Virus record (IMG/VR): IMGVR_UViG_3300047178_000019 | Location: 1-23,211 of that record | Length of the DNA stretch: 23,211 nucleotides | Direction: 5' to 3' (one strand) | DNA from: a virus | In this document: positions 2,677 through 23,211 of the stretch, piece by piece | How positions within the stretch are numbered: position 1 is the first letter of the stretch | Layout of the letters: each line of letters begins with the position of its first letter | Translations under genes and position numbers: made by a program | The notes under the pieces: model-generated | Seen by the model: the letters and a program-made list of their open reading frames with translations, nothing else | What the model was told of the DNA's origin: nothing | The model's database searches: none

Positions 2677-3888
2677 TTACCCCTGTCCGTAGCGACGTTG
2701 AAGAGCCGCCGGAACGTGATGCTTGTCGATCAGGTTGTCGAAGAACTTGGTGCCCAGCTTGTGGACCACGTCGGCCGGGATGATGAACTCACCGTTCGAC
2801 AACTTCACAGGCTCTCCAGTGTCGGTGTTCTGGGCAGTCACGCTGTCCGAGATCCCTGTGCCCGGGCCGTAGATCGCGCCGCCCCGATGACCACTGTTGT
2901 CCGGGTGACCGCCCAATCCGCCACCATCCGCTTTCGTGATTGCGCCGCCGATCGCCGAGCCGAGGGCAGCTCCGACCGGTCCACCCATGACGCCACCAGC
3001 AATCGTGCCGAGCGCACTACCCAGACCAGCCGAGCTGTTGGCGCTCTGTTGCTGCTGCTCCTGCCAGCCACGCATCTCGTCGCCATACATCGTGCCGGCA
3101 GTGTTCGATGCGGCGTTCAGATCTGAAGCTGCGCTCGCCAGACCCTGTTGACCGACCGAGGTTGTTTGATCTCCCACCGACTGCGTACCGATCGAGTTGC
3201 CGGTTGCAGTCGCGCCGGCTTGGTTGCCGGAGTTTGAATAATTCAGCGCCTCACCCGCCATTGAGCTGGCCGTGTTGGCAGCCGTCTGACGCAGTGCAAT
3301 CGCAGTGTTTCGGGTATTGACGTCGGACGAGTTCTCCGCGCCTGCTACAGCTGCAGCTTGTTGGCCGAGCAGCTGCGTGTTGATGTCCGACATTGCTGCA
3401 GCGTTCGGCGAGATTCCGTAGCGCGACAGGTTGTCATCGTTCTCTTGCTCGATCTGCCCGTAGGCTTGATTCTCATTGGCCGCAGCTTCGCCAGCATAGA
3501 GATTTCGATTGGCCGTGCTGTCGTAGTCTTCAGCGTCTTGGATCGACTGCTCTTGGACAGGCAGGCCATACTGATCGTAGGCGCTGTAGATCTGCTGAGA
3601 GTCAGCATAATCCGTGTCCTGAGCCTTGATCGTGTTCGCGTTGATCGCTTCAGTCTGAGAATCCAGCTGAAGCTGCTGACCTTCGTTCTGGTTGTACGCA
3701 TCCTCTGCGAACTTCTGAGCCTGAGTAGACAGGTTGACCTGCTGCTGAAGGATGGCATCGTACTCAGGGTCAGGCTGTGGAGGGGACGAGCTGTCGCCGC
3801 CGCTGGCGCCCCACGTGTTCTCCATCTCGAAGTCCGTCAGATCCCGCAGGAGCCGACGCTTCAGGATGAACTTAAAGAATCTCAGCAT
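2677..3888 (-). CDS. Putative ejection/tail-associated virion protein with glycine zipper and ADGG/GPGTG motifs
   Basis: The product is 403 aa. Residues about 40-285 are Gln/Asn/Ala/Ser-rich and helical. Residues 287-317 form a glycine zipper (GxxxG-type repeats around GGVMGGPVGAALG) that could span or insert into a membrane. The C-terminus carries ADGGG (320-324), GPGTGISDS (341-349) and LSNGEFIIPADVVHKLG (363-379). This last set recurs near the C-terminus of many podophage virion proteins linked to DNA delivery. The ATG at 3888 gives a 17-bp overlap with the GNAT-like gene and has only a weak GGA upstream. A second ATG at 3825 (MENTWG) would drop a basic, hydrophobic 21-residue N-terminus and is an equally defensible start. 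Function is inferred from motif pattern and neighbours. Confidence 0.75.
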   Translation of the reverse strand: MLRFFKFILKRRLLRDLTDFEMENTWGASGGDSSSPPQPDPEYDAILQQQVNLSTQAQKFAEDAYNQNEGQQLQLDSQTEAINANTIKAQDTDYADSQQIYSAYDQYGLPVQEQSIQDAEDYDSTANRNLYAGEAAANENQAYGQIEQENDDNLSRYGISPNAAAMSDINTQLLGQQAAAVAGAENSSDVNTRNTAIALRQTAANTASSMAGEALNYSNSGNQAGATATGNSIGTQSVGDQTTSVGQQGLASAASDLNAASNTAGTMYGDEMRGWQEQQQQSANSSAGLGSALGTIAGGVMGGPVGAALGSAIGGAITKADGGGLGGHPDNSGHRGGAIYGPGTGISDSVTAQNTDTGEPVKLSNGEFIIPADVVHKLGTKFFDNLIDKHHVPAALQRRYGQG

Positions 3889-4309
3889 AGTCTTTGATCC
3901 AGCGGCACTCGGACCGCAACATTCCCATCACGATGACGTCACCGCCGGCCTTGTTGGCGCACTTCATAACGCCCTCCCTCTTGAAGCCGACGTGCTCATC
4001 AAAGCGAAGAGCTTTTGTGTTGTGGGCATCGACAAACCCATTGACCCTTTGGCAGCCGAGCTGCATGAAGGCATAGACGAAAATCTTGCGCAGGAACTCG
4101 CGTGTACACCAGTGCTTACCCGGCACGGCGCCGACGTGGATATTGACGCTGACGCCCGGGTCGTATCGCTCGAAGACCACGCCAGCGATCAGCTCACCGT
4201 CCTGCTCAACTCCGATACCCTTGGCGCCAGCCCAGCCGTTAGATCCGGTCTGGGATGCAACGAAGCGGTGAACCTGCTCGTCCATCCCGTAGATTATTGT
4301 GCGTGCCAT
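3872..4309 (-). CDS. GNAT-like N-acetyltransferase-family protein
   Basis: This 145-aa protein has the size and strand-helix rhythm of a small GNAT domain. A central strand (LIAGVVFERYDP and following) is followed by a basic helix region after VPGKHWCTREFLRK, then a strand with GFVDAHNTKALRF and the late GFKREGVMK segment, where GNAT proteins typically place the residue after motif A and the C-terminal strand. The classic Q/RxxGxG/A acetyl-CoA loop is not clean; VPGKHWC sits in its place, so catalysis is not assured. Similar small GNAT proteins are often found in podophage structural clusters with unknown targets. It starts 15 bp after the DUF4376-like gene, with only a weak purine-rich site (GTAAAG) before the ATG, and its end overlaps the next gene by 17 bp. 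Confidence 0.75.
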   Translation of the reverse strand: MARTIIYGMDEQVHRFVASQTGSNGWAGAKGIGVEQDGELIAGVVFERYDPGVSVNIHVGAVPGKHWCTREFLRKIFVYAFMQLGCQRVNGFVDAHNTKALRFDEHVGFKREGVMKCANKAGGDVIVMGMLRSECRWIKDYAEIL

Positions 4310-4324
4310 CTTTACGGTATTGTC

Positions 4325-4954
4325 TCAGGGCGACGACGTTCCACTAGGCCAGACCACCGCCAAAGCCTCAACCGGCGTCGTGGCGGCATTGATCTGCACC
4401 CGGAGCGCTGCAGCCGTGCTGAATGCCCCGGCGACCAGCTGGCCCACGGCAACTCCGAGCGCCATCATCTGACTGGCGTTCAGGGTCATGGTCGTGTTGT
4501 CAGTCAGGGTCCACTCGATCGCCCACGCCTGACCGGCCGCAGTCGCCATGGTGGCAAGGGTGACTGCCGATCCGATGCGTTGCTGGCTGATCTGGTCAGT
4601 CTGGAAGTTGCCGCCGTTGTAGGTCACGCCACCGTACTGCAGCGCATCTCGAGCGGCCTGCACCGCCGTCCACGCATCTGCCTGAGCCTGAGCCAGCGAT
4701 CGATTGTCCGTCCACGTGCATGACGGCAGCGACCATGTGAAGTTCGGTCCGGGCCAAGCCTGCAACAGAGCCGCCTGAGGTTGGGTGTAGGCGACCAGCT
4801 CGCCATTGGCGACGTAGTGGCTGTACAGGTTGACCGTTGAATCGCAGGCCATCGCCGTGCCATTCAGGGTCTTGAAGTTGGGAAGATCGGCTTCTGGGAT
4901 CTGACCGAACTGGACGATCCTGCCGGTGGCGTCAAAGACGCAGTAAGGAGTCAT
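4325..4954 (-). CDS. DUF4376-like tail-fibre-associated protein
   Basis: The gene encodes 209 aa from an ATG whose A overlaps the upstream stop (ATGA), with AGGAG-free but coupled initiation. A longer reading from 4999 would need a 48-bp overlap and has no ribosome site. The N-terminal half (MTPYCVFDATGRIVQFG) resembles small fibre-associated proteins. Residues about 100-205 resemble DUF4376, with an ARDALQYGGVTYNGGNFQTD-like strand pair followed by a long helix and a final helix around ALRVQINAATTPVEAL. DUF4376 proteins usually lie next to tail fibre genes and may be chaperones or minor fibre components. The immediate upstream gene is a 650-aa fibre/tip protein, which fits. There are no signal peptide or membrane segments. 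Confidence 0.8.
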   Translation of the reverse strand: MTPYCVFDATGRIVQFGQIPEADLPNFKTLNGTAMACDSTVNLYSHYVANGELVAYTQPQAALLQAWPGPNFTWSLPSCTWTDNRSLAQAQADAWTAVQAARDALQYGGVTYNGGNFQTDQISQQRIGSAVTLATMATAAGQAWAIEWTLTDNTTMTLNASQMMALGVAVGQLVAGAFSTAAALRVQINAATTPVEALAVVWPSGTSSP

Positions 4955-6903
4955 CGACGAGTCTCCAGCGCAAACAATGTTGATCCATAGGTGTAGCAAG
5001 TCACGGATCCGGTGGCGCCTTCAGCACCGTTCGCGTAACCGTAGACTCCCCAAGCGTGATAGCCGGCAGCCGGTGTATCGACATAGGTCAAGGTGGATAC
5101 GTTAGCCAGAGAATAGACAGTGGTGCCATCACGCTGAAGGACAATCGTTCCGCATACTGGAGCACTTCCAGCTGAAGATCCGCCGCCACCTTCACCACCC
5201 TCAGTTCCGGTCCAAGTCGTCTGGAAGGAACCGGTGAAGTTGAGGTAGACAGGGCCACCCGTCGTCGTGAAACCTACGGAAGTGATACCAGTTGCCGAGG
5301 AGATCGTGCCAGTGCCGCCATGAGCCGACGCGGCAATCGTCACCGCATTGCCGGCAATGTTGATCGTGTTCACCGCATTGACAGCTGCAGCCGTTAACGT
5401 GCCAGAGAAGGTTCCATCGGCCGCAGACAATGTGGCATTGGTCGTTATGTACGAGCTGTCGCCATCGTTGTAGTACTGGAGGTACCTTCCGCCACCGTTG
5501 TAATTTCCCAGCAGAAGGCCATTGATCCCGATGTAAAACCCGCCACTACCAGCAGCAGGCCATGCGTAGCTTGTGATCGCTCCGCCGGTCAGCTGAGTAA
5601 CGACGCCGGTCGTGGCGTTAATCGTCCCGGTGAAAGTTCCGCTTCCGATGACGCTCAGCGCACTGCCGTTCCATAACAGGCCGCTCGTACCATTCCCGAT
5701 GGAGAGCTTGTAAGCGCTCGATCCACCTGTGGTGTCGTACCCAAGGAAGAAGCCGGTGCCGGTGTTGTACGCAGTCTGTCCGCCACGAATGTACGAGCTG
5801 GAGTCGAGCGTGATGTTGCCCGAGCTGATCGCACCCAAAGCAGCGTTGATCGCAGACAGGCTGCCGATCGATGCAGTGTTGATCTGAGCCAAGCCGACAG
5901 CTGCAGACTGGATGTTCGCACTGCTGATGGCAGCCATGCCGATCTGTGCATTGCCGATTGCAGCCGCCGCGATCAGTGCTTGCGTGATGGCGGCCGTACC
6001 GATCTTGGCAGTGGTGATCGTGCCATTGGCGATCGAGGCATTCGTGATGTAGACGCCCGGTGGAACTGTCTGCCCATTCACCACCGTCGATGTCGTGATC
6101 ACGGTGAAGGGATTGATTGCGCTGACGCCGCTCGTCCCAGCTGGGGGAGAGATCGTGAAAGCGCCGGCCGTGATGTTGACCGGATCCGAGACCGTGGCGC
6201 TGTTCACCAGACTCAGGATGTACGTGGGATCTACACCCGGGGTGGCTGCCAGACCTGCGGTGGCCGAGCTGTTCGCTGGACCCTCGATCGGATACTGAGT
6301 CACAAACGTGATCCAGTAGTAGTAGGTCACTCCACCCGTGCCGAGCGTATCAACGAATGTGGTACCCGGCGACATGCCGATGCACACCGCATCCGAGAAG
6401 TTGTCAGTCGTCGATCGATAGATCTTGGTGAAGGCTGGGTTGCTGTAGGTCGGCGCGTCCCATGACAGGATGACGCACCCAAGTGCGCCAGCTCCGGTCA
6501 GGCCAGTAGGGGCGGGCGGAGGATCCCCATTCTGCACGCCAGAGCTGACGTCCACACTCGCGCCACTCCCACCGCCACTTTCACTGATGATGGTCTCGGT
6601 CGTGCTACCTGCTTGCACGTTCGTGCTCGATCCAGACGCTATCAATCCGGCGGAGCTGACCTTAACGATCCCGTTCGCGACGAGATCTCGCCACGTCACA
6701 TTGGAATCAGCGATGGATCCGGAGCGCCCCTCGCGCGTGTCGAGGCCGATCTTGATCTGGCGAATCGCAGCCGCCAGAGAGTCAACGGTGTTGCCGACCT
6801 TAGAGATCGACGGAACCGAAGCGGGATCCTGCGCGAAAGTCTGGACATCAACCCCTGTGAGAACAAGGGGCTGACCCAGCATGCGAGACTGATGGACTGT
6901 CAT
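4951..6903 (-). CDS. Tail fibre/tip protein with Fn3 domain and lambda-J-like C-terminal region
   Basis: This 650-aa protein is modular. Residues 1-100 are a helical head that probably attaches it to the tail, with SLAAAIRQIKIGLDTREGR at about 42-60. Residues about 129-220 form a fibronectin type III-like domain (PPPAPTGLTG, ILSWDAPT, IYRST, TYYYWITF). Residues about 290-350 are an unusual Ala/Ile repeat in which short AxIxxAxI units follow each other. Residues about 360-520 resemble the C-terminal region of siphophage host-specificity proteins of the lambda J type (SSGNITLDSSSYIRGG, SALSVIGSGTFTGTINATTG). The last 120 residues are Gly-rich and beta-rich, a likely receptor-binding tip. The gene begins with an ATGA overlap with the nozzle-like gene and ends with another. 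Receptor binding is inferred from domain order; the exact family was not searched. Confidence 0.8.
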   Translation of the reverse strand: MTVHQSRMLGQPLVLTGVDVQTFAQDPASVPSISKVGNTVDSLAAAIRQIKIGLDTREGRSGSIADSNVTWRDLVANGIVKVSSAGLIASGSSTNVQAGSTTETIISESGGGSGASVDVSSGVQNGDPPPAPTGLTGAGALGCVILSWDAPTYSNPAFTKIYRSTTDNFSDAVCIGMSPGTTFVDTLGTGGVTYYYWITFVTQYPIEGPANSSATAGLAATPGVDPTYILSLVNSATVSDPVNITAGAFTISPPAGTSGVSAINPFTVITTSTVVNGQTVPPGVYITNASIANGTITTAKIGTAAITQALIAAAAIGNAQIGMAAISSANIQSAAVGLAQINTASIGSLSAINAALGAISSGNITLDSSSYIRGGQTAYNTGTGFFLGYDTTGGSSAYKLSIGNGTSGLLWNGSALSVIGSGTFTGTINATTGVVTQLTGGAITSYAWPAAGSGGFYIGINGLLLGNYNGGGRYLQYYNDGDSSYITTNATLSAADGTFSGTLTAAAVNAVNTINIAGNAVTIAASAHGGTGTISSATGITSVGFTTTGGPVYLNFTGSFQTTWTGTEGGEGGGGSSAGSAPVCGTIVLQRDGTTVYSLANVSTLTYVDTPAAGYHAWGVYGYANGAEGATGSVTCYTYGSTLFALETRR

Positions 6904-10638: not shown

Positions 10639-12915
10639 TTAGAGAGCCATTACTGCGTCGTGGAAGGCGCTTGCGTGCCTGAAACCGTGGTAGTCGATAC
10701 CTTGGTTAATCTGACCACCCCACGCGCGTTGCACGATCGAATTGGCCGGAATTGCAAGAGTGTTGCCCGAGCAACCAGTGAACTGTCCACCGTAGGTACC
10801 GTTCGCGCTGTAGCCGGTGTACGTCACGAGCTGACCGTTGACCCAGATGTTGTAAGTGCCATTGGGCGATGCCGCCGCGTTTGCCGGCGTCGGCCACTGA
10901 TCTCCCGGTGCCGGCGCATTGGTCAGGACAGGGATTGTGGTGGCATTGGCAGCAACGAGCGAAGCAACTTGCACGTTGTTCGAGTGAGCCGGGTGAACCG
11001 CGTCATTGGTCGGGGTGGCAGGGTTGCCGACGTTCGCGTCAGCGTTGCCGTCCGCCACATGGTTGTAGACCTGACCAGATCCAGTGATCAATGCCTGACC
11101 GCTCTGCCCCGATGCACCTGACGAGTTGTACCAAGTGCCCGTCATCGTGCTCCAGTAAATCCACAGCCCCGTCATCTGGGTCTGCATGAAGTTGAGCATG
11201 TAGGCATCGCGCGCAAGATCTGCGGTAACCGGCGTAGCCTTGATGAATCCCGGCGTGACAAACAGGATCGCGTTGGGGTTGTTCGCGCGCGCGGCGAGAA
11301 GCGTAGTTTGAATTGCGGTTGCGACACTCAGTCCGTTTGCAGCAGTCGGCCATCCGTCATTGATACCCGCAGCCAGAACAACCACGTCAGCCTGAGCTGC
11401 AGCAAGAGCCGCGATACGGCGCGAATCAGTCGTGTTCGGAAGGAACGAGTAAGCGGTAGCGAACGAAACCTCAGCGTACCCCGTGCCACCGATCGCATCG
11501 AGCGTATGCGCAGGAGCACCAGTCAGGAGACCGAACTGAGCAGCAACTCCACCGAGCGCGCCAGACGCAAGACCCTGCGCCTGCATGATCGAGTCACCCT
11601 GCCATGCGTGCGTGAACGACTTCGAGGTGATGTCGAGCGGAACCACGGTGTCGATGGCGTTGAAACCGAAGCCCGAGAAACCAGCGCCGAACATCCAGAT
11701 CAACTTCCGCATCTTGCGAGTGCCGAAGTTCACCAACGTCATGTTGTTGTTTTCAGGATAGATGGGGTTCTGATTCTGAAGCTGCCCATCAACCATCAGT
11801 TGCCAATTGCCGCCGCCGCCGCCATACACAGCGATGTTCGGAGCATCGGTAGACATCGCGATGAAGCCAAGGCTAGCACCGTTACCTACGGTTGTTGCCT
11901 GATCCGGCAGGCACGGACTGAAATAGGACAGGTGCGTACCGTCGTTGGTATTGCTCGTGGACCCGTTGTCAGTCCAGTTTTGGAAGTTCCAAACGGTCGC
12001 GTAGTTCAGCAGGTTGAACGTGTACGGCGATGCGAACTGGCGCGGCTCACATGCGGTACGAACAGTCGAACCAAGTCCGACAGCTGCGGTACCACCGATG
12101 CAACCGTAGAAGTGAGTCGCATCCTTGTAAAGATAGGTGACCGTGTTTGCGGAAGTCTCGCTGCCGATTGCGCCACCGACGTAGATCTGATTGGTCTGAT
12201 TGAAGACTTGCGAACTAGATGGGAAGGTTCCCGGTACAGCCGGCGACGCGCAGTTGCAACCTTGCAGAACATTGCCGACGATGCTGGTGTAGGTGATGGC
12301 ATTGCCGGCGCTGCCGATGTAAACCGTGCCAGATCCAGCCAACGCATACGTGTCATTGACCGCGATGGTGCCGTTCGAGATTGGGAGCGTGACTGCCGCA
12401 GTCGATACGGTGTACGAGTTGCTCGGAAACTGCTTGGTCGAGGTGACTGGGATCGTTGCAGCAGGAAGCTGAAGAGCGGCCGTGGTCGGCGTCTGGGCTT
12501 GCGGCAGGTAGTAGTAGACGTAGTTGGCAATGGCCGGCCCGCCAGAGGTGCCATTGTAGACGTAGCCGACGGTGTTGACGCTGGGCTGATTCGAGTTGCT
12601 GCTGGTGACCGTGATGACCGGTGGATTCGCCATGATCGGAATCGATGGCGCGCCCATGCTGGCAATCAAGGACGCCAGCAGCGTGTTGCGAACGCGCGTC
12701 AGCACCGACTTCGAGCCACTGTTCGCGAGGGCGCCTTCAGAGTCAACGATACGCACGATCGGGAGATCATCTCCTGATACGCCAGTGACTTGCTCGCCAG
12801 CACCAATTTCACCGTAGGGAACCGTACCGCCGAGACCCACAGCCTTGAAGAGCGGAACACCCTTGTTGTTGACCGTGGTGAGGCGGCGACGGCCCAGCGT
12901 ACTAGATTCGATCAT
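10639..12915 (-). CDS. Tail spike/fibre with SGNH (GDSL-type) hydrolase domain, putative polysaccharide esterase
   Basis: The product is 758 aa. Residues 1-65 form a module also present in the next gene. Residues about 150-240 and 655-735 contain two related beta segments (ITYTSIVGNVLQGC and VTYTGYSANGTYGG) that flank the enzyme domain. The SGNH core lies at about 430-650. Block I is WQGDS (nucleophile Ser442), block II GGTGY (476-480), block III GIND (517-520, Asn519) and block V NDAVH (Asp638, His641). All four catalytic-block residues are present. SGNH domains in phage spikes are known to deacetylate surface polysaccharide (phage G7C gp63.1). A similar role in capsule or O-antigen recognition is likely. 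The ATG follows the upstream TAA directly, with GGAG eight bases before. No signal peptide is seen. Confidence 0.88.
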   Translation of the reverse strand: MIESSTLGRRRLTTVNNKGVPLFKAVGLGGTVPYGEIGAGEQVTGVSGDDLPIVRIVDSEGALANSGSKSVLTRVRNTLLASLIASMGAPSIPIMANPPVITVTSSNSNQPSVNTVGYVYNGTSGGPAIANYVYYYLPQAQTPTTAALQLPAATIPVTSTKQFPSNSYTVSTAAVTLPISNGTIAVNDTYALAGSGTVYIGSAGNAITYTSIVGNVLQGCNCASPAVPGTFPSSSQVFNQTNQIYVGGAIGSETSANTVTYLYKDATHFYGCIGGTAAVGLGSTVRTACEPRQFASPYTFNLLNYATVWNFQNWTDNGSTSNTNDGTHLSYFSPCLPDQATTVGNGASLGFIAMSTDAPNIAVYGGGGGNWQLMVDGQLQNQNPIYPENNNMTLVNFGTRKMRKLIWMFGAGFSGFGFNAIDTVVPLDITSKSFTHAWQGDSIMQAQGLASGALGGVAAQFGLLTGAPAHTLDAIGGTGYAEVSFATAYSFLPNTTDSRRIAALAAAQADVVVLAAGINDGWPTAANGLSVATAIQTTLLAARANNPNAILFVTPGFIKATPVTADLARDAYMLNFMQTQMTGLWIYWSTMTGTWYNSSGASGQSGQALITGSGQVYNHVADGNADANVGNPATPTNDAVHPAHSNNVQVASLVAANATTIPVLTNAPAPGDQWPTPANAAASPNGTYNIWVNGQLVTYTGYSANGTYGGQFTGCSGNTLAIPANSIVQRAWGGQINQGIDYHGFRHASAFHDAVMAL

Positions 12916-17882: not shown

Positions 17883-19835
17883 CTATGCTGGCTGGGGTGC
17901 AGGCTGACCGTTCTGCATACTTGCCATTGCGGCTGCCTGTGCATTCATACTAGCAACCTTCTGACCGATCTCTTCAGGTGTTGGGATGATGTCATCGACG
18001 TTCATATCGAGCGAAGCCGCCATCTTGCGCAGCAGGTTCGCGCGGCCTTCCATACCCATGATCTGCGAGTCGATCGGATTGAGCGTGGTCTGCAGGAATT
18101 CTTGACGACGAGCTTGGACGTTGTCCTTGATCAGAGTCGCGACCGAGCCGCTTGCCTTGATCTTCATGTCACCCTTGCACGCGCTGTCAGGGTCGTAGAT
18201 CATAATGTGCTCGAACGTGCGCTGGATCGCTCCGGAGCGCGTCTTGTCGAGATTCAGGATCGCGTTCTTGATACCCTTGCCCGCGTTCTCCATCAGCATC
18301 GAGAGACCCGACGCAGTACGGCCGGCGCCGGATGCTTGGTTCGATCCGTAGATGTAGTTCGGCACACCCGTGACTTCATCCGCCACGCGCGCGAAGTACT
18401 GGTAGATCGCCATCAGCTGCTCGGCGTTCATGTCGGGCTGGAAGAACCTGATCGCAGCTTGGCCGCCGCCTGTGCGGTCACCAGTGGTCTGCCAGATCTT
18501 CCATGGGTACATCTGCGTTACTGGCTCACCCGGGGGCAGACGGCTGATGTCCACCTCAACCTGTGGTCCAGAGGCGATTGCCATGTTGTTGCCGAGCGCG
18601 CGCGCAGCTGCATTGCACATGATCTGCACGTCGCTCATCACTTCGGGCAGAGCCATGCCCCAGAACGCACCCGGGATATTGATGAACGAAGCAGTCTCGT
18701 AGGGACGACGTCCCAACGGGTCCGGGTTCATGATGGCGCGCACCGTGTACGGGCCGATCGTCCAGAGGTTAACTTCATAGTCGGTGTAGGGATCAAGTCC
18801 CTTCATACCCCACTGCAGCAGCATGTCACCCGATACGGCGCCCCAGAACTCGATGCACTCGATCGAGCCGCGCGAGTAGTAGGTGTTCTGCTTGCCCTCG
18901 AGGCGCTCGTGTTCGCTGTCACCGTCCTGCCAGTTCTTCAAACCGTTGCGGCCGTACAGCTCGAGCACCTTCCGGATTTCGTCGTCATTGGATCCGGGCT
19001 GGCCGATCATCCCCTGCAGGTTCTTGCGATTCAGGCGCGAGCGCTCGATGAAGAACTCGTCTCCGGCGCCAGTGGCCTGCGGGCAAGGGAAGGCATCGTA
19101 GGGAGAGACGCGGTAGTAATCACGCATCATCTTCATCTCGACCTGCGGCGTGAACTTCGGCCCCCAAGTCATGGTGGGCTTCTTGCGCATGATCGGACCC
19201 TTGAGAATGCAGGTCGGGTACGTCACGAAGTCGTAGACGATCGCACGGAAGTGCTCGTCGAACTTGGCTTGCTCGAGGATCCCCTCGATCTTCTCTTCCA
19301 TCAGGTCAGCAGCGGTGCGCGCCTGCTCCTTCAGCTTCTCGTGGACCGTGTGATACAGGTCGTCCATGCGCTGATAGACCGCCTCAGGCAGCACCCCTTG
19401 GCCGGTCTGCTCCTGCAGCATCTGTACCTCTTGCTGCACGTGCTTGATGATCTGTTGATTCAGGTTCGCTGGCAGATCCGGTTCCGAGTTCGGATCCAGA
19501 CCCCAGCTCTTCTCGCCGCCGTTCATCAGGACATCGTTGATCCACGCCTCAGCCGCGCGGCACTTGATGTCGGTCAGCATCATGTAGATGTCTGTCCCGC
19601 CGGTCTTCCGGATCTCGACAGCTCGAGCCGGGTCGTACACACCACGCCGTTGTCGTTCGCACTGCAAGAGCCGTTGCGTCACAATGGTCCGAGCAGATCT
19701 CGCCTGCCAGTAGCACTGATGCACATACGACGTCAGGTTCAACATCGCCAATCCCTCGACATCCTTGTTCGAGGGCACCGGCAGAGCAGACTGTTGCTGC
19801 GCCGCCATCTGCGCCGTGTTCATTGCGAAACTCAT
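17883..19835 (-). CDS. Portal protein
   Basis: The 650-aa product forms the dodecameric ring through which DNA enters the capsid, as judged by place and pattern. It follows terL with an ATGA overlap; the ATG at 19835 is preferred over a GTG two codons earlier because of this junction. Portal-like elements are the N-terminal helices, the IECIEFWGAVSGD strand region, a FPCPQATGAGDEFFIERSR region, and the conserved GVPNYIYGSNQASGAGRTAS loop region (about residue 490-510) followed by the long helix. Length is in the range of P22-like portals (about 700 aa). The C-terminal 30 residues are Ala/Met/Gln-rich, as in other portals of this group. The call is strong because terminase lies immediately upstream and scaffold/capsid follow. 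Confidence 0.9.
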   Translation of the reverse strand: MSFAMNTAQMAAQQQSALPVPSNKDVEGLAMLNLTSYVHQCYWQARSARTIVTQRLLQCERQRRGVYDPARAVEIRKTGGTDIYMMLTDIKCRAAEAWINDVLMNGGEKSWGLDPNSEPDLPANLNQQIIKHVQQEVQMLQEQTGQGVLPEAVYQRMDDLYHTVHEKLKEQARTAADLMEEKIEGILEQAKFDEHFRAIVYDFVTYPTCILKGPIMRKKPTMTWGPKFTPQVEMKMMRDYYRVSPYDAFPCPQATGAGDEFFIERSRLNRKNLQGMIGQPGSNDDEIRKVLELYGRNGLKNWQDGDSEHERLEGKQNTYYSRGSIECIEFWGAVSGDMLLQWGMKGLDPYTDYEVNLWTIGPYTVRAIMNPDPLGRRPYETASFINIPGAFWGMALPEVMSDVQIMCNAAARALGNNMAIASGPQVEVDISRLPPGEPVTQMYPWKIWQTTGDRTGGGQAAIRFFQPDMNAEQLMAIYQYFARVADEVTGVPNYIYGSNQASGAGRTASGLSMLMENAGKGIKNAILNLDKTRSGAIQRTFEHIMIYDPDSACKGDMKIKASGSVATLIKDNVQARRQEFLQTTLNPIDSQIMGMEGRANLLRKMAASLDMNVDDIIPTPEEIGQKVASMNAQAAAMASMQNGQPAPQPA

Positions 19836-21295
19836 GTCCACCCACTCATCGATACAGGTTGAACTTCACGCCTGCGGACCGGGTTCGCTTCACCACGGAA
19901 ATGCAGGCACAGGTACTGCAGGGCGTCGTGCGGGTGGGAATACTTATCCTTCACCGGACGGTCCTTGAATCTGGAGCTACCGCTGACCTTCAGGCGTTCG
20001 TAGCGGTAGCCGCTGGTGAAGCCCTTCTTCAGCACCTTGCAGCTGGGGTCGAGCAGGAAGCCCGTCTCACCGGCCGCCATCTTGGTCAGGAAGAACGCCA
20101 CCGATTCACGACGCGAAGTGAACTCGTTCGTCACTGCCGGCTCGCAAATGCAGCCCATGTCCGCCAACTCTTGGATCGGCGTGAACTCGTCGGTCTGCGA
20201 GCGGATCGAGCCTGCAGGATCCCCAGTCCAGTCGATGCGATAGCCCCTGTAGTTCTCAGCCACCCACGGCAGCACCACGTCGGTGTAGAACCTGCGGATC
20301 CCCATGTCCTCAGCCACAAGCTCGGACAGAATGTTCAGGCGCCCTCGAGCGTCCATCTGCCCGAAGATGCAGGCCGGCGTCAGACCAAAGTCAAAGGCGC
20401 CAACCAGTGGCCGTCCGGGGATCGGCTTGAGCGCCTCCTTCGCCAGATGCGCGTCTTGGTTCCACTCGCCCTGATAGACCGGCTTGCCATCGAGCGTCGT
20501 GCCGTACATGCCACCAAGGAAGACCTTGATCCACTCCTCGGTCTTGCCGGCCAGCTGACGCAGGTAGTAGTTGTAGCCCGACTGCAGGTTCTGAATGTTC
20601 TCGGCCATGGGGTTGGGTACCCACAGCTCATTCTTCGGATTCTTCGGATCCACGATCTTCATCAAGCCACCGGGCTGGTTGAAGAACTCGTAGGTCTCGG
20701 GAGTCTCCTTCTCGTCCCAGTGGTACCACCAGTGATCGTCGTCCGGCGGGTTGGTGTCCATGAACAAACCAACCCACGAAGCTCCCCCATTGCGCTTCGC
20801 CGGGTACCGATCCAGCCGGCTCGTCATCATCTCGATGACCGTGCGCTCCAGCTCACTGGCCTCATTGGCCCAGCCGAACGTCACCTCGAGCGACTTCAAC
20901 TTACGGACGTCATCCGGCCGATCAATCGCCAGAAAAGTGGCCTCATGCCACAGTCCGGTACCGTCCCCAATGTCCGGGATCTCAATCGTCCCCGTGATCG
21001 GCGAGTCGTACTTCATCTCGCAGATCGGATCGAACCAGTCCAAGAACGTCTTGATCGTCGTGGATCGAAGCTCCGGGTACGTGTTCCGCACAATCACCGA
21101 CTTCGACTTGCGCACACCCTTGTAAGGCCGCTGCTCCATGGCCCGAGTCAGGATCTCCATGCAGCACGAACTCGACTTCCCGGATCCAACCGGACCCTTC
21201 AGCCCCCGAACGAACGCATTGCTCGCATGGAACGCCTCAGCAACCGGCCCGGGCGGGACGTAGTTGACCGTGTGCTCGTCCACAACCTCGCTCAA
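19832..21295 (-). CDS. terL: Terminase large subunit (packaging ATPase and nuclease)
   Basis: The 487-aa motor protein pumps DNA into the procapsid and cuts it. The ATPase has a Walker A (GPVGSGKS, 34-41), a Walker B-like segment with catalytic Glu (SLEVTFGWANEASEL, Glu145), and a coupling motif (FMDTNPP, about 178-184). The RNase H-like nuclease shows Asp302 (GAFDFGLTP), Asp359 (WTGDPAG) and Asp457 (SHPHDALQY), the three acidic positions expected. The length is normal for this family. The start is TTG in a TTGA overlap with the upstream small gene; no better start lies near. It ends in an ATGA overlap with portal. The motifs make the call firm. Confidence 0.95.
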   Translation of the reverse strand: MSEVVDEHTVNYVPPGPVAEAFHASNAFVRGLKGPVGSGKSSSCCMEILTRAMEQRPYKGVRKSKSVIVRNTYPELRSTTIKTFLDWFDPICEMKYDSPITGTIEIPDIGDGTGLWHEATFLAIDRPDDVRKLKSLEVTFGWANEASELERTVIEMMTSRLDRYPAKRNGGASWVGLFMDTNPPDDDHWWYHWDEKETPETYEFFNQPGGLMKIVDPKNPKNELWVPNPMAENIQNLQSGYNYYLRQLAGKTEEWIKVFLGGMYGTTLDGKPVYQGEWNQDAHLAKEALKPIPGRPLVGAFDFGLTPACIFGQMDARGRLNILSELVAEDMGIRRFYTDVVLPWVAENYRGYRIDWTGDPAGSIRSQTDEFTPIQELADMGCICEPAVTNEFTSRRESVAFFLTKMAAGETGFLLDPSCKVLKKGFTSGYRYERLKVSGSSRFKDRPVKDKYSHPHDALQYLCLHFRGEANPVRRREVQPVSMSGWT

Positions 21296-21510
21296 TCGAT
21301 CGACCCCGTCACGCGGATCTTCTCGATCAGGCTCTTGGCGCCGTAACTGGTCGTGCCGGCCGGCAGCTCAAGGTCGAACGTATCCACGCAATTGCCCACA
21401 TAGCGCCGGATCCGCCACTCAGGCTTCCTGCAATCGATCGACAACAGAAGCAATCCGGGTTTTAGCTGAGTTCTCATACGAAAAAGCGTAACAATCGATT
21501 GACATTCCAC
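21292..21510 (-). CDS. Small hypothetical protein upstream of terL
   Basis: An open frame runs from 21591 to 21292 and its stop overlaps the terL start (TTGA). I prefer the GTG at 21510 (72 aa), which has GGAATTGCT before it, nearly the same as the capsid gene's start region (GGAAATTGCT). A GTG at 21591 (99 aa) has no ribosome site and lies inside a hairpin. An ATG at 21477 (61 aa) also lacks one. The protein has an MRTQLKPGLLLLSIDCRK-type N-terminal strand, a WRIRRYVGN segment and a C-terminal helix (SLIEKIRVTG). No domain is recognised. Its coupling to terL suggests a packaging-related role. Confidence 0.55.
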   Translation of the reverse strand: MECQSIVTLFRMRTQLKPGLLLLSIDCRKPEWRIRRYVGNCVDTFDLELPAGTTSYGAKSLIEKIRVTGSID

Positions 21511-21848
21511 AGCAATTCCACAAGGAATTAGTGCATGGCGAACGAAGGTGATACCGAAAAGTATCGTATAAACCCGTGTTTTCGGAGACACAGGGTGCTA
21601 TCGGTATCGCCTAATGATACTTTTTGCTATTTTGCGCGAGGGGTGAAGACTGTGCGGGGGGGGTAGAGTGCTGGATCCAAACCACCCCCGGGTGACCCCG
21701 ATGGTCCACATGGGGTGTCGCGACCGCGATCACGGCGCTAGGGCGGATTTTCGACCGACTTCAAGGGATGGAAGACCAAGCCAGCTGGCTGCTGGAGGGT
21801 AGAACGACGGATCATGTATCCGTGATGCTGGCCTTATGAATCAATGGC
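21511..21848. other. Non-coding gap between terS and the pre-terL gene, with inverted repeats, a G8 tract and a palindrome
   Basis: No convincing gene is present. It holds a GATAC(6)GTATC repeat (21550-21565), a GTATC(7)GATAC repeat (21604-21620), and an 8-bp inverted repeat GATACCGA/TCGGTATC (21550-21557 and 21601-21608). The last encloses a further hairpin (21573-21579 with 21589-21595). It also holds a run of eight G (21656-21663), a perfect 12-bp palindrome AGCCAGCTGGCT (21779-21790), and an ACGGAT/ATCCGT hairpin (21807-21823). On the minus strand a TATCAT -10-like hexamer lies in the GTATC(7)GATAC repeat behind A-rich DNA, but no -35 is seen. Regulation of the terL transcript or a packaging-site role are both possible. 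Confidence 0.5.
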
Positions 21849-22862
21849 TTAGCGTTGCTCGATGGCTGGCTGTACAGGGACAGACACGCGCTGCGGTACG
21901 CCAATGTTGAATGTCGGACTGACTTTATGCTCGTGTTCGACCTTGTCGCCATAGCGGCCCGGTTTCATCTTCGCAGCGATCCACTGCCTTGTTTCTATTC
22001 GAGTTTTTCCCGCAATGACCTCAACCATGCTCTTCGCGTGCTGTAGACCATCTGCGATGTCCAAAATGTCGTCTGCCAGTGTGTCGGCGCGATCTTCATG
22101 TGCGCGCGAGTAAGCGACCGCGAACTCTCGATTTTCCGCTATCCACTTGTAGATCGTGCCTGCTTGTCCACCGTACTTTTGCAGATAGCTTGCCAGTGAT
22201 CGACCTGATTGAATCCATTCGCATATGGCTAGACCCTTTTCGAGTGTGTACTGGCTTGGTGCTCCTCTTCGTCTTGGGAGACCTACGATGTCTGCAGGGT
22301 TTACTGTTGGCTCTACTGTGACTTGAGAGGTTGCTACGTTTGCCACGGGGAGAATGGCCGCCGACTCGTTGCGCTCCTTCTCCCGCTTGATTGCCTCTTG
22401 ACCATCCAGTGCCGCTGTGACGATTGCTGCCATCGCTTGGCTTACCCGAGCCGCCACGATCAGCGCTCCTGTGCGATTTTCTGCACCTGCCTTGATCAGT
22501 TCATCGGTTAGCGCTATGGGAGCCTTGTTCGCAGCTTGTAGCATCTCTTCCGGCACTTCATCGCCTCGAATGATCCTGTCCGCCACGTAAACGCATTGCT
22601 GTACCGCATGCTTGGTCGCCTTCAAGACCGCCGATCGCTCACGACGCAATACCTTTGCCTCTGGCTTACCTCCTGCGACTGCGATCTCCTGCGATAGAAC
22701 TTGATTCATTGCCATCTTCGTTGCCGCTTGGTTGCGCTCTGCCGCCGGTAATTTTTCGAGATATTCCCGCTTGTTCGCTGCCTTGCGTTCGGCCAATTTC
22801 GGGCGCTTTTTTTTGAGCTGGGGCGCGACGTTCGTCGCTTCGTTGTTTTTTTCTTCACTCAT
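21849..22862 (-). CDS. terS: Terminase small subunit (DNA-recognition subunit) with long N-terminal extension
   Basis: The 337-aa product ends in a typical small-terminase region (about 200-310). It has a helix-turn-helix-type start (SQYTLEKGLAICEWIQSG), a GQAGTIYKWIAENREFAVAY segment, and HEDRADTLADDILDIADG, leading to ETRQWIAAKMKPGRYGDK, as in Sf6 gp1-like proteins. Residues 1-195 are extra compared with the usual 140-190 aa. They are Lys/Ala/Glu-rich and helical (MSEEKNNEATNVAPQLKKKR start; KATKHAVQQCVYVADRIIRG inside) and could be an oligomerisation or DNA-binding extension. The ATG at 22862 has no strong ribosome site (GGA eleven bases away). It is the first gene of the leftward late block; the leftward promoter is not obvious. 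terL lies downstream with one small gene between. Confidence 0.85.
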   Translation of the reverse strand: MSEEKNNEATNVAPQLKKKRPKLAERKAANKREYLEKLPAAERNQAATKMAMNQVLSQEIAVAGGKPEAKVLRRERSAVLKATKHAVQQCVYVADRIIRGDEVPEEMLQAANKAPIALTDELIKAGAENRTGALIVAARVSQAMAAIVTAALDGQEAIKREKERNESAAILPVANVATSQVTVEPTVNPADIVGLPRRRGAPSQYTLEKGLAICEWIQSGRSLASYLQKYGGQAGTIYKWIAENREFAVAYSRAHEDRADTLADDILDIADGLQHAKSMVEVIAGKTRIETRQWIAAKMKPGRYGDKVEHEHKVSPTFNIGVPQRVSVPVQPAIEQR

Positions 22863-22888: not shown

Positions 22889-22917
22889 TTGACACTGAGT
22901 AGTTCTACTTACAAAAT
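22889..22917 (+). promoter_or_regulatory. Sigma70-type promoter, rightward
   Basis: A perfect -35 (TTGACA, 22889-22894) is followed by exactly 17 bases and a -10-like CAAAAT (22912-22917), which matches TATAAT at four positions. Transcription would start near 22924, heading away from terS and into a structured region with no protein gene. It is the only strong promoter-like match I noticed in the non-coding parts of the window. Confidence 0.6.
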
Positions 22918-22925
22918 TACTTTGA

Positions 22926-22958
22926 TTAATCCCGTTTGGCATCTACATTTAATCCCGT
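22926..22958. repeat. Two direct 10-bp repeats TTAATCCCGT
   Basis: Identical copies at 22926-22935 and 22949-22958 start 23 bases apart, about two helical turns, so a dimeric protein could bind both on one face. They lie just downstream of the rightward promoter's predicted start and 64-96 bases upstream of terS. They could serve as an operator for the rightward transcript or an activator site for the leftward late genes. Confidence 0.55.
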
Positions 22959-22970
22959 AAGACGTTGTAT

Positions 22971-22979
22971 CGCTCTTTA
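22971..22979 (+). promoter_or_regulatory. boxA antitermination element
   Basis: CGCTCTTTA is an exact match to the classical boxA consensus bound as RNA by NusB-S10 in lambda nut sites and rRNA leaders. It lies about 48 bases inside the predicted rightward transcript and 22 bases before the first large stem-loop, the order expected for an antitermination leader. A nine-base match can occur by chance, so context carries much of the weight. Confidence 0.55.
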
Positions 22980-23164
22980 AAAACTTGGTCTTCCTGTGAC
23001 GCGCTTGACGGGAAATCTCAGTGGCAGCGGAAGCCCTGCCTGAGCTGAGATCGAGTGAAGCGCCGAGGAAATCGAGTCAAGGCCGGAAACGGAAACCTTG
23101 CTCGTGACAACACCATTATGACTTGAACCTCACGTATCTCTGTGAGAATTCGAGAGAAAAGCTG

Positions 23165-23200
23165 AAGGCCATTGGTTAACTCCAGTGGCCTTTGTCGTTT
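23165..23200 (+). terminator. Terminator-like hairpin, rightward
   Basis: AAGGCCATTGG pairs with CCAGTGGCCTT (11 bp with one T-G wobble) round a TTAACT loop, followed by TGTCGTTT. The T-run is interrupted, so strength is uncertain. The other strand has a T-rich CAGCTTTTCTC after the same stem, so the hairpin may work in both directions. Confidence 0.6.
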
Positions 23201-23211
23201 CTGTCACTAGG

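Follow-up and report, generated by a model that had tools for sequence, protein, structure and literature searches.

A putative boxA leader transcribed away from the terminase genes of a viral contig, and promoter-boxA leaders in other phages

The 23,211-base window analyzed here, which is the whole of one IMG/VR record (class linear, often a fragment), raises the question of what function is served by the stretch between its terS gene and its right-hand end, where a putative plus-strand leader runs to the contig end at 23211. All family-identified genes (terS, terL, the adaptor and the virion proteins) lie on the minus strand, opposite to this leader as an initial annotation of the DNA had claimed, and terS and terL are followed on that strand by a head-tail adaptor, a tail fibre and internal virion proteins. 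Named phages with a related TerL, at about 40-44% identity, include BcepC6B, MEP301, Cronobacter Ss1 and Pseudoalteromonas Y3. The initial annotation had listed a promoter, a boxA, three stem-loops and a final hairpin in this order on the plus strand, and each of these was recovered at or adjoining its annotated place (Table 1). Three readings had been offered for them: a nut- or put-like antitermination leader of a rightward operon, a free small RNA and a packaging RNA. Elsewhere in the window, weak matches below the Pfam cut-off were seen among the virion genes to a GDSL lipase (10639-12915, minus strand) and a GNAT acetyltransferase (3872-4309, minus strand). Around 21544-21615 the terS-terL gap (21296-21848, about 550 nt) has a large inverted repeat, and it also harbors a G run; a small minus-strand ORF located in the gap (21292-21591), without a Pfam match, may be a real gene.

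Table 1. Features of the putative leader and the neighboring terminase genes (window coordinates)
Feature	Position	Strand	Evidence	Remark
terL	19832..21295	-	PHROG 2, E 1.5e-21; tblastn	
terS	21849..22862	-	PHROG 1482, E 1e-31	divergent neighbour of the leader
sigma70-type promoter TTGACA-17-CAAAAT	22889..22917	+	consensus scan, 10/12	predicted
two exact TTAATCCCGT copies, 23 bp apart	22926..22958	+	repeat search	at the putative transcript start
extended boxA CGCTCTTTAAAAACTTGG	22971..22988	+	motif scans	presumed NusB/NusE binding site
nested stem-loop	23001..23063	+	predicted folds	z -3.6 for 22984-23120
GAAA-capped stem-loop	23073..23104	+	predicted folds	
small stem-loop	23122..23154	+	predicted folds	
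terminator-like hairpin	23164..23193	+	predicted folds, T-tail scoring	weak T-tail

The interpretation of this locus rests on its boxA. The segment CGCTCTTTAAAAA (22971-22983) differs from CGCTCTTTAACAA by one mismatch and is the only match to it in the window with two mismatches or fewer, 0.30 being expected at that laxness. Within it, positions 22972-22982 form a perfect GYTCTTTAANA, again the sole one in the window, which bears out the consensus boxA of the initial annotation; this consensus was derived for functional gammaproteobacterial boxA elements (PMC5725501) and may not be that of the host. The boxA of the rRNA leader and of suhB, a NusB/NusE site, shares GYTCTTTAANA with the window (PMC5725501), but neither rRNA nor suhB lies downstream here, up to the contig end. 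In the centroid fold the boxA is unpaired, as is the first part of the transcript, and it continues with CTTGG in agreement with the extended consensus of other phage leaders described below.

The predicted promoter points away from terS and lies 53 nt upstream of the boxA. A transcript would start near 22924, placing the boxA about 48 nt past its expected start. A scan over 1.9 kb should yield about one 10/12 match by chance, and the promoter is therefore not significant alone; the promoter-to-terminator order, which had been held to argue against chance, is present, but its first element is by itself at chance level. The two TTAATCCCGT copies could possibly be an operator or a chance repeat, and the rest of the window holds no more sequences resembling TTAATCCCGT than chance would give. 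The same ten bases are also found at the promoter of the boxA leaders of two very large phages (L136 and L151).

It is decidedly unlikely that the region is an intergenic stretch in which a promoter-like word, a boxA-like word and GC-rich hairpins have merely come together, although the chance-level promoter and a folded part without homologues would suit such an origin. By our estimate a perfect boxA arises by chance with a probability of about 5e-4 in a 290-nt leader, for a motif that had been pre-chosen by the initial annotation, and it stands here in the right orientation and at the right distance. Moreover, it is extended as in other phage leaders and shared with the relative L021, and the plus-strand fold has a z below -4.

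The folding itself is strong. The plus strand from 22924 to 23211 folds with a z of -4.09, better than all shuffles, so that the compact structure claimed earlier does hold against chance; with the last hairpin left out (22984-23155) the z is -4.21 and 0 of 200 shuffles are as good. Folding of the minus strand is weaker (z -2.1 and -2.7). The last hairpin had been called terminator-like at 23165. With -18 to -20 kcal/mol it is stable, yet the T-tail behind it scores only about 1.9 as compared with 3.4 for an rrnB T1 tail, and owing to this weak U-tail we regard it as no more than a candidate terminator.

Similarity searches with the region were largely negative. Rfam, including its phage pRNA family, gave no match at the gathering score and two chance matches only at a relaxed threshold. 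No homologue emerged from blastn comparisons with phage and plasmid sequences and with 13 relatives, and a one-sequence covariance model (R1) detected little elsewhere beyond the boxA part (L021 with E 0.086, others with E above 1). By blastn and R1 searches the folded part thus has no alignable homologue, and the long exact pattern GCTCTTTAAAAACTTGGTCTTCCTG likewise had no match. The put element of HK022 is also an early leader RNA folded into several stem-loops, and is described as about 70 nt with two stem-loops that act alone (PMC9378689). That description sets put apart from the window, whose recognizable element is a boxA, and a put-like assignment is not supported; the HK022 stretch examined carries no annotated put sites. 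We consider it quite unlikely that the folded 22984-23155 is an antiterminator RNA of a new class, combining features of the T7/rRNA and put types, that cooperates with boxA and needs no phage protein.

The order from promoter to hairpin and the strong fold would also suit a free, trans-acting small RNA of about 270 nt, extending from about 22924 to the hairpin at 23164-23193, in which the boxA is accidental or titrates NusB/NusE. Such an RNA is unlikely, and less likely than an antitermination leader: the T-tail of its presumed terminator is weak, other phages have boxA in the leaders of their long transcripts, and neither an Rfam match nor a homologue was found.

Searches with TerL and TerS yielded about 130 loci, many of them too short to reach upstream of terS; TerS scans with a single protein found nothing. 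Several of these relatives carry genes divergent from terS. In L021, a boxA CGCTCTTTCAAAACTTGCTC (window counterpart CGCTCTTTAAAAACTTGGTC), one position off GYTCTTTAANA, lies on the strand opposite to terS, 65 bp from the terS start. It opens a leader of about 450 nt followed by genes on the same strand, including AAA/CbbQ-like and CobT-VWA proteins, and these rightward genes appear to span about 20 kb before leftward virion genes begin, an extent that is approximate because the ORFs are mechanical and the DNA is GC-rich. The first 140 nt of the L021 leader fold no better than shuffles (z -0.5) and 460 nt give a z of -2.0; a strong fold is therefore not a trait common to the two leaders. As for its gene content, an AAA/CbbQ-like ATPase is the first gene of the divergent operon in both L021 (562-4168, minus strand) and L020 (905-2182, minus strand), followed in L021 by the CobT-type VWA protein. 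Upstream of the L021 leader lies a perfect palindrome TTGATCTAGATCAA (4947-4960, minus strand) built like an FNR/ANR site. The first codons of terS, as annotated, overlap with this palindrome, and the gene may in fact start at the next ATG.

Among the TerL/TerS relatives scanned, L021 is the only one with a boxA near terS. In the closest TerL relatives, L018 and L019 (63%), the divergent promoter reads TTGACT and the short leader behind it lacks a boxA; the divergent gene of L019 begins only about 70 nt downstream of the promoter. L182-L203 likewise combine a divergent promoter with a leader lacking boxA. A boxA-like CGCTTTTTCCA at a constant distance in L182-L203 was rejected, as it lies inside small genes on the terS strand. 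The divergent promoter of L182-L203 (TTGACA or TTGACC) is well conserved upstream of terS, and the hairpin-rich leader behind it (CACTGGCCTCCCAGACGGGCCA...) is also conserved. Otherwise the relatives, with 3 perfect boxA sequences in 1.24 Mb, do not exceed the chance frequency, and no boxA was found in the stretches examined of BcepC6B, Ss1, Rollin, MEP301 and Y3, named phages with related TerL. Thus, related phages commonly have a promoter next to terS that points away from it, but the boxA leader, present in the window and L021 only, is mosaic.

The same comparison bears on a role in packaging. A pac site or pRNA beside terS, whether acting as DNA or RNA, would account for the adjoining gene and perhaps for the short direct repeats, but the region is not conserved beside terS in relatives, Rfam with its phage pRNA family gave no match, and the boxA would be left unexplained. 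We therefore find no support for the packaging RNA suggested earlier and regard a packaging element of either kind as highly improbable.

Do leaders of this organization occur outside the terminase relatives? The pattern CGCTCTTTNAAAACTTG matched 52 IMG/VR loci against 13 for its reversed control, a count in which many loci are coding and near-copies are included. Promoter-boxA-like leaders within this set belong to Pseudomonas temperate phages, the T7-like L125 and the very large phages L136, L151 and L156. A direct scan of IMG/VR for TTGACA-TANNAT followed 40-70 nt on by CGCTCTTTAA gave 69 matches, where fewer than 10 would be expected by chance on our rough estimate. Together with the window, and after removal of near-copies, these make a nonredundant set of 51. 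In 44 of them CGCTCTTTAA is followed by CAA or AAA (about 1.6 expected), although the pattern makes no demand on these three positions, and the extended consensus of promoter-boxA leaders is CGCTCTTTAA[CA]AA[TC][CT][TC]G(G/C). The class is defined by a single search pattern and a single type of control, with ORF context judged mechanically. T7 falls within the set: counted from the A3 start, its boxA comes after about 62 nt, and gene 0.3 follows about 110 nt further on. The Pseudomonas phage phiAH14a (KU708004, L158) has the same 17-base boxA as the window, in an operon adjoining the repressor. A literature search found no paper on boxA early leaders across phages, which is not proof of novelty because most subscription journals lay outside it.

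An extended boxA stands 40-70 nt behind a promoter in L221-L289, L108, L111, L125, L128, L136, L140, L142, L144, L148 and L153. In the Pseudomonas temperate phages (L108, L111, L128, L140, L142, L148, L153 and phiAH14a), the 70-300 nt of leader past the boxA are nearly invariant (CGCTCTTTAAAAACTTGATGGACGCCGAGCTGGCC...), and this leader is partly annotated as a hypothetical protein.

T7 offers the closest comparison. Its early leader (promoters A1-A3, boxA, gene 0.3) and that of the window both have a host-type promoter, a boxA about 50-60 nt downstream of the start (AACAATCTGG in T7, AAAAACTTGG in the window) and a folded leader. The early operon of T7 is transcribed by host RNA polymerase, as that of the window would be according to our proposal. 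On the other hand, the fold past the boxA in the window is unrelated to that of T7 and stronger, and the presumed operon of the window, unlike that of T7, diverges from terS and would lie beyond the contig end. According to a paper that cites Savalia et al. 2010, the early T7 promoters are followed by a boxA antitermination element, and Gp2 becomes dispensable when this element is mutated (PMC3709561).

We propose that a rightward early operon probably begins with 22889-23211, and that its boxA loads NusB/NusE so that the polymerase resists termination. Host RNA polymerase would start near 22924 and move away from the genes for terminase and virion proteins, which run leftward, and the boxA would be made about 48 nt into the transcript. 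Host NusB/NusE would then bind the boxA RNA and other Nus factors would join, forming a termination-resistant polymerase that could pass the 23164-23193 hairpin and terminators within the operon. The folded RNA past the boxA may either complete the antitermination site or merely space the boxA from the first gene. Promoter activity, the operon beyond 23211 and any phage cofactor are putative, as are Nus binding and read-through, which we infer from the boxA consensus and by analogy with T7.

Of the three readings put forward initially, an antitermination leader is the best supported, because of the perfect boxA, the nearly identical boxA of L021 and the layout of T7. In its favor are also the unpaired state of the boxA, the 69 IMG/VR matches and phiAH14a; against it count the chance-level promoter, the absence of boxA from L018/L019, the folded part without homologue, and the fact that L021, the only relative with a boxA near terS, has it one position off and in a leader that is not unusually folded.

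The nut and put particulars of that reading are not supported. Lambda nut sites, like the window, have a boxA in an early leader, and the window has hairpins besides, one with a GAAA loop, which could suggest a lambda-type nut site bound by an N-like phage protein encoded beyond the contig. However, no boxB-sized hairpin is predicted within about 15 nt of the boxA, the GAAA hairpin lying about 90 nt downstream, and no N protein is seen within the contig, which stops before the early region. T7, which is not known to have an N protein, shows the promoter-boxA layout, and we also count this against a lambda-type nut site. N-dependent nut sites, three in each phage, are known in non-lambdoid coliphages (PMC11893012), but on balance a site of this type is quite unlikely here. 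The putative antitermination leader of the window would be a new example of a device known from T7, rather than a new kind of RNA.

Of greater interest than the window leader itself is the by-product of this analysis, that early leaders of phages seem to use boxA widely. The window leader suggests that a T7-like boxA strategy extends to phages whose terminases and genome layouts differ, and the leaders collected here suggest that many unrelated phages, including T7-like and Pseudomonas temperate ones, carry an extended boxA 40-70 nt behind a strong promoter. If the extended boxA is so widespread, host Nus factors would be a common dependence of phages, and the motif would provide a simple sequence test for the starts of early operons in uncharacterised phages. 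As a separate observation, CGCTCTTTCAAAACTTG is found between two tRNA genes at position 5647 of a 94-kb IMG/VR record (L115).
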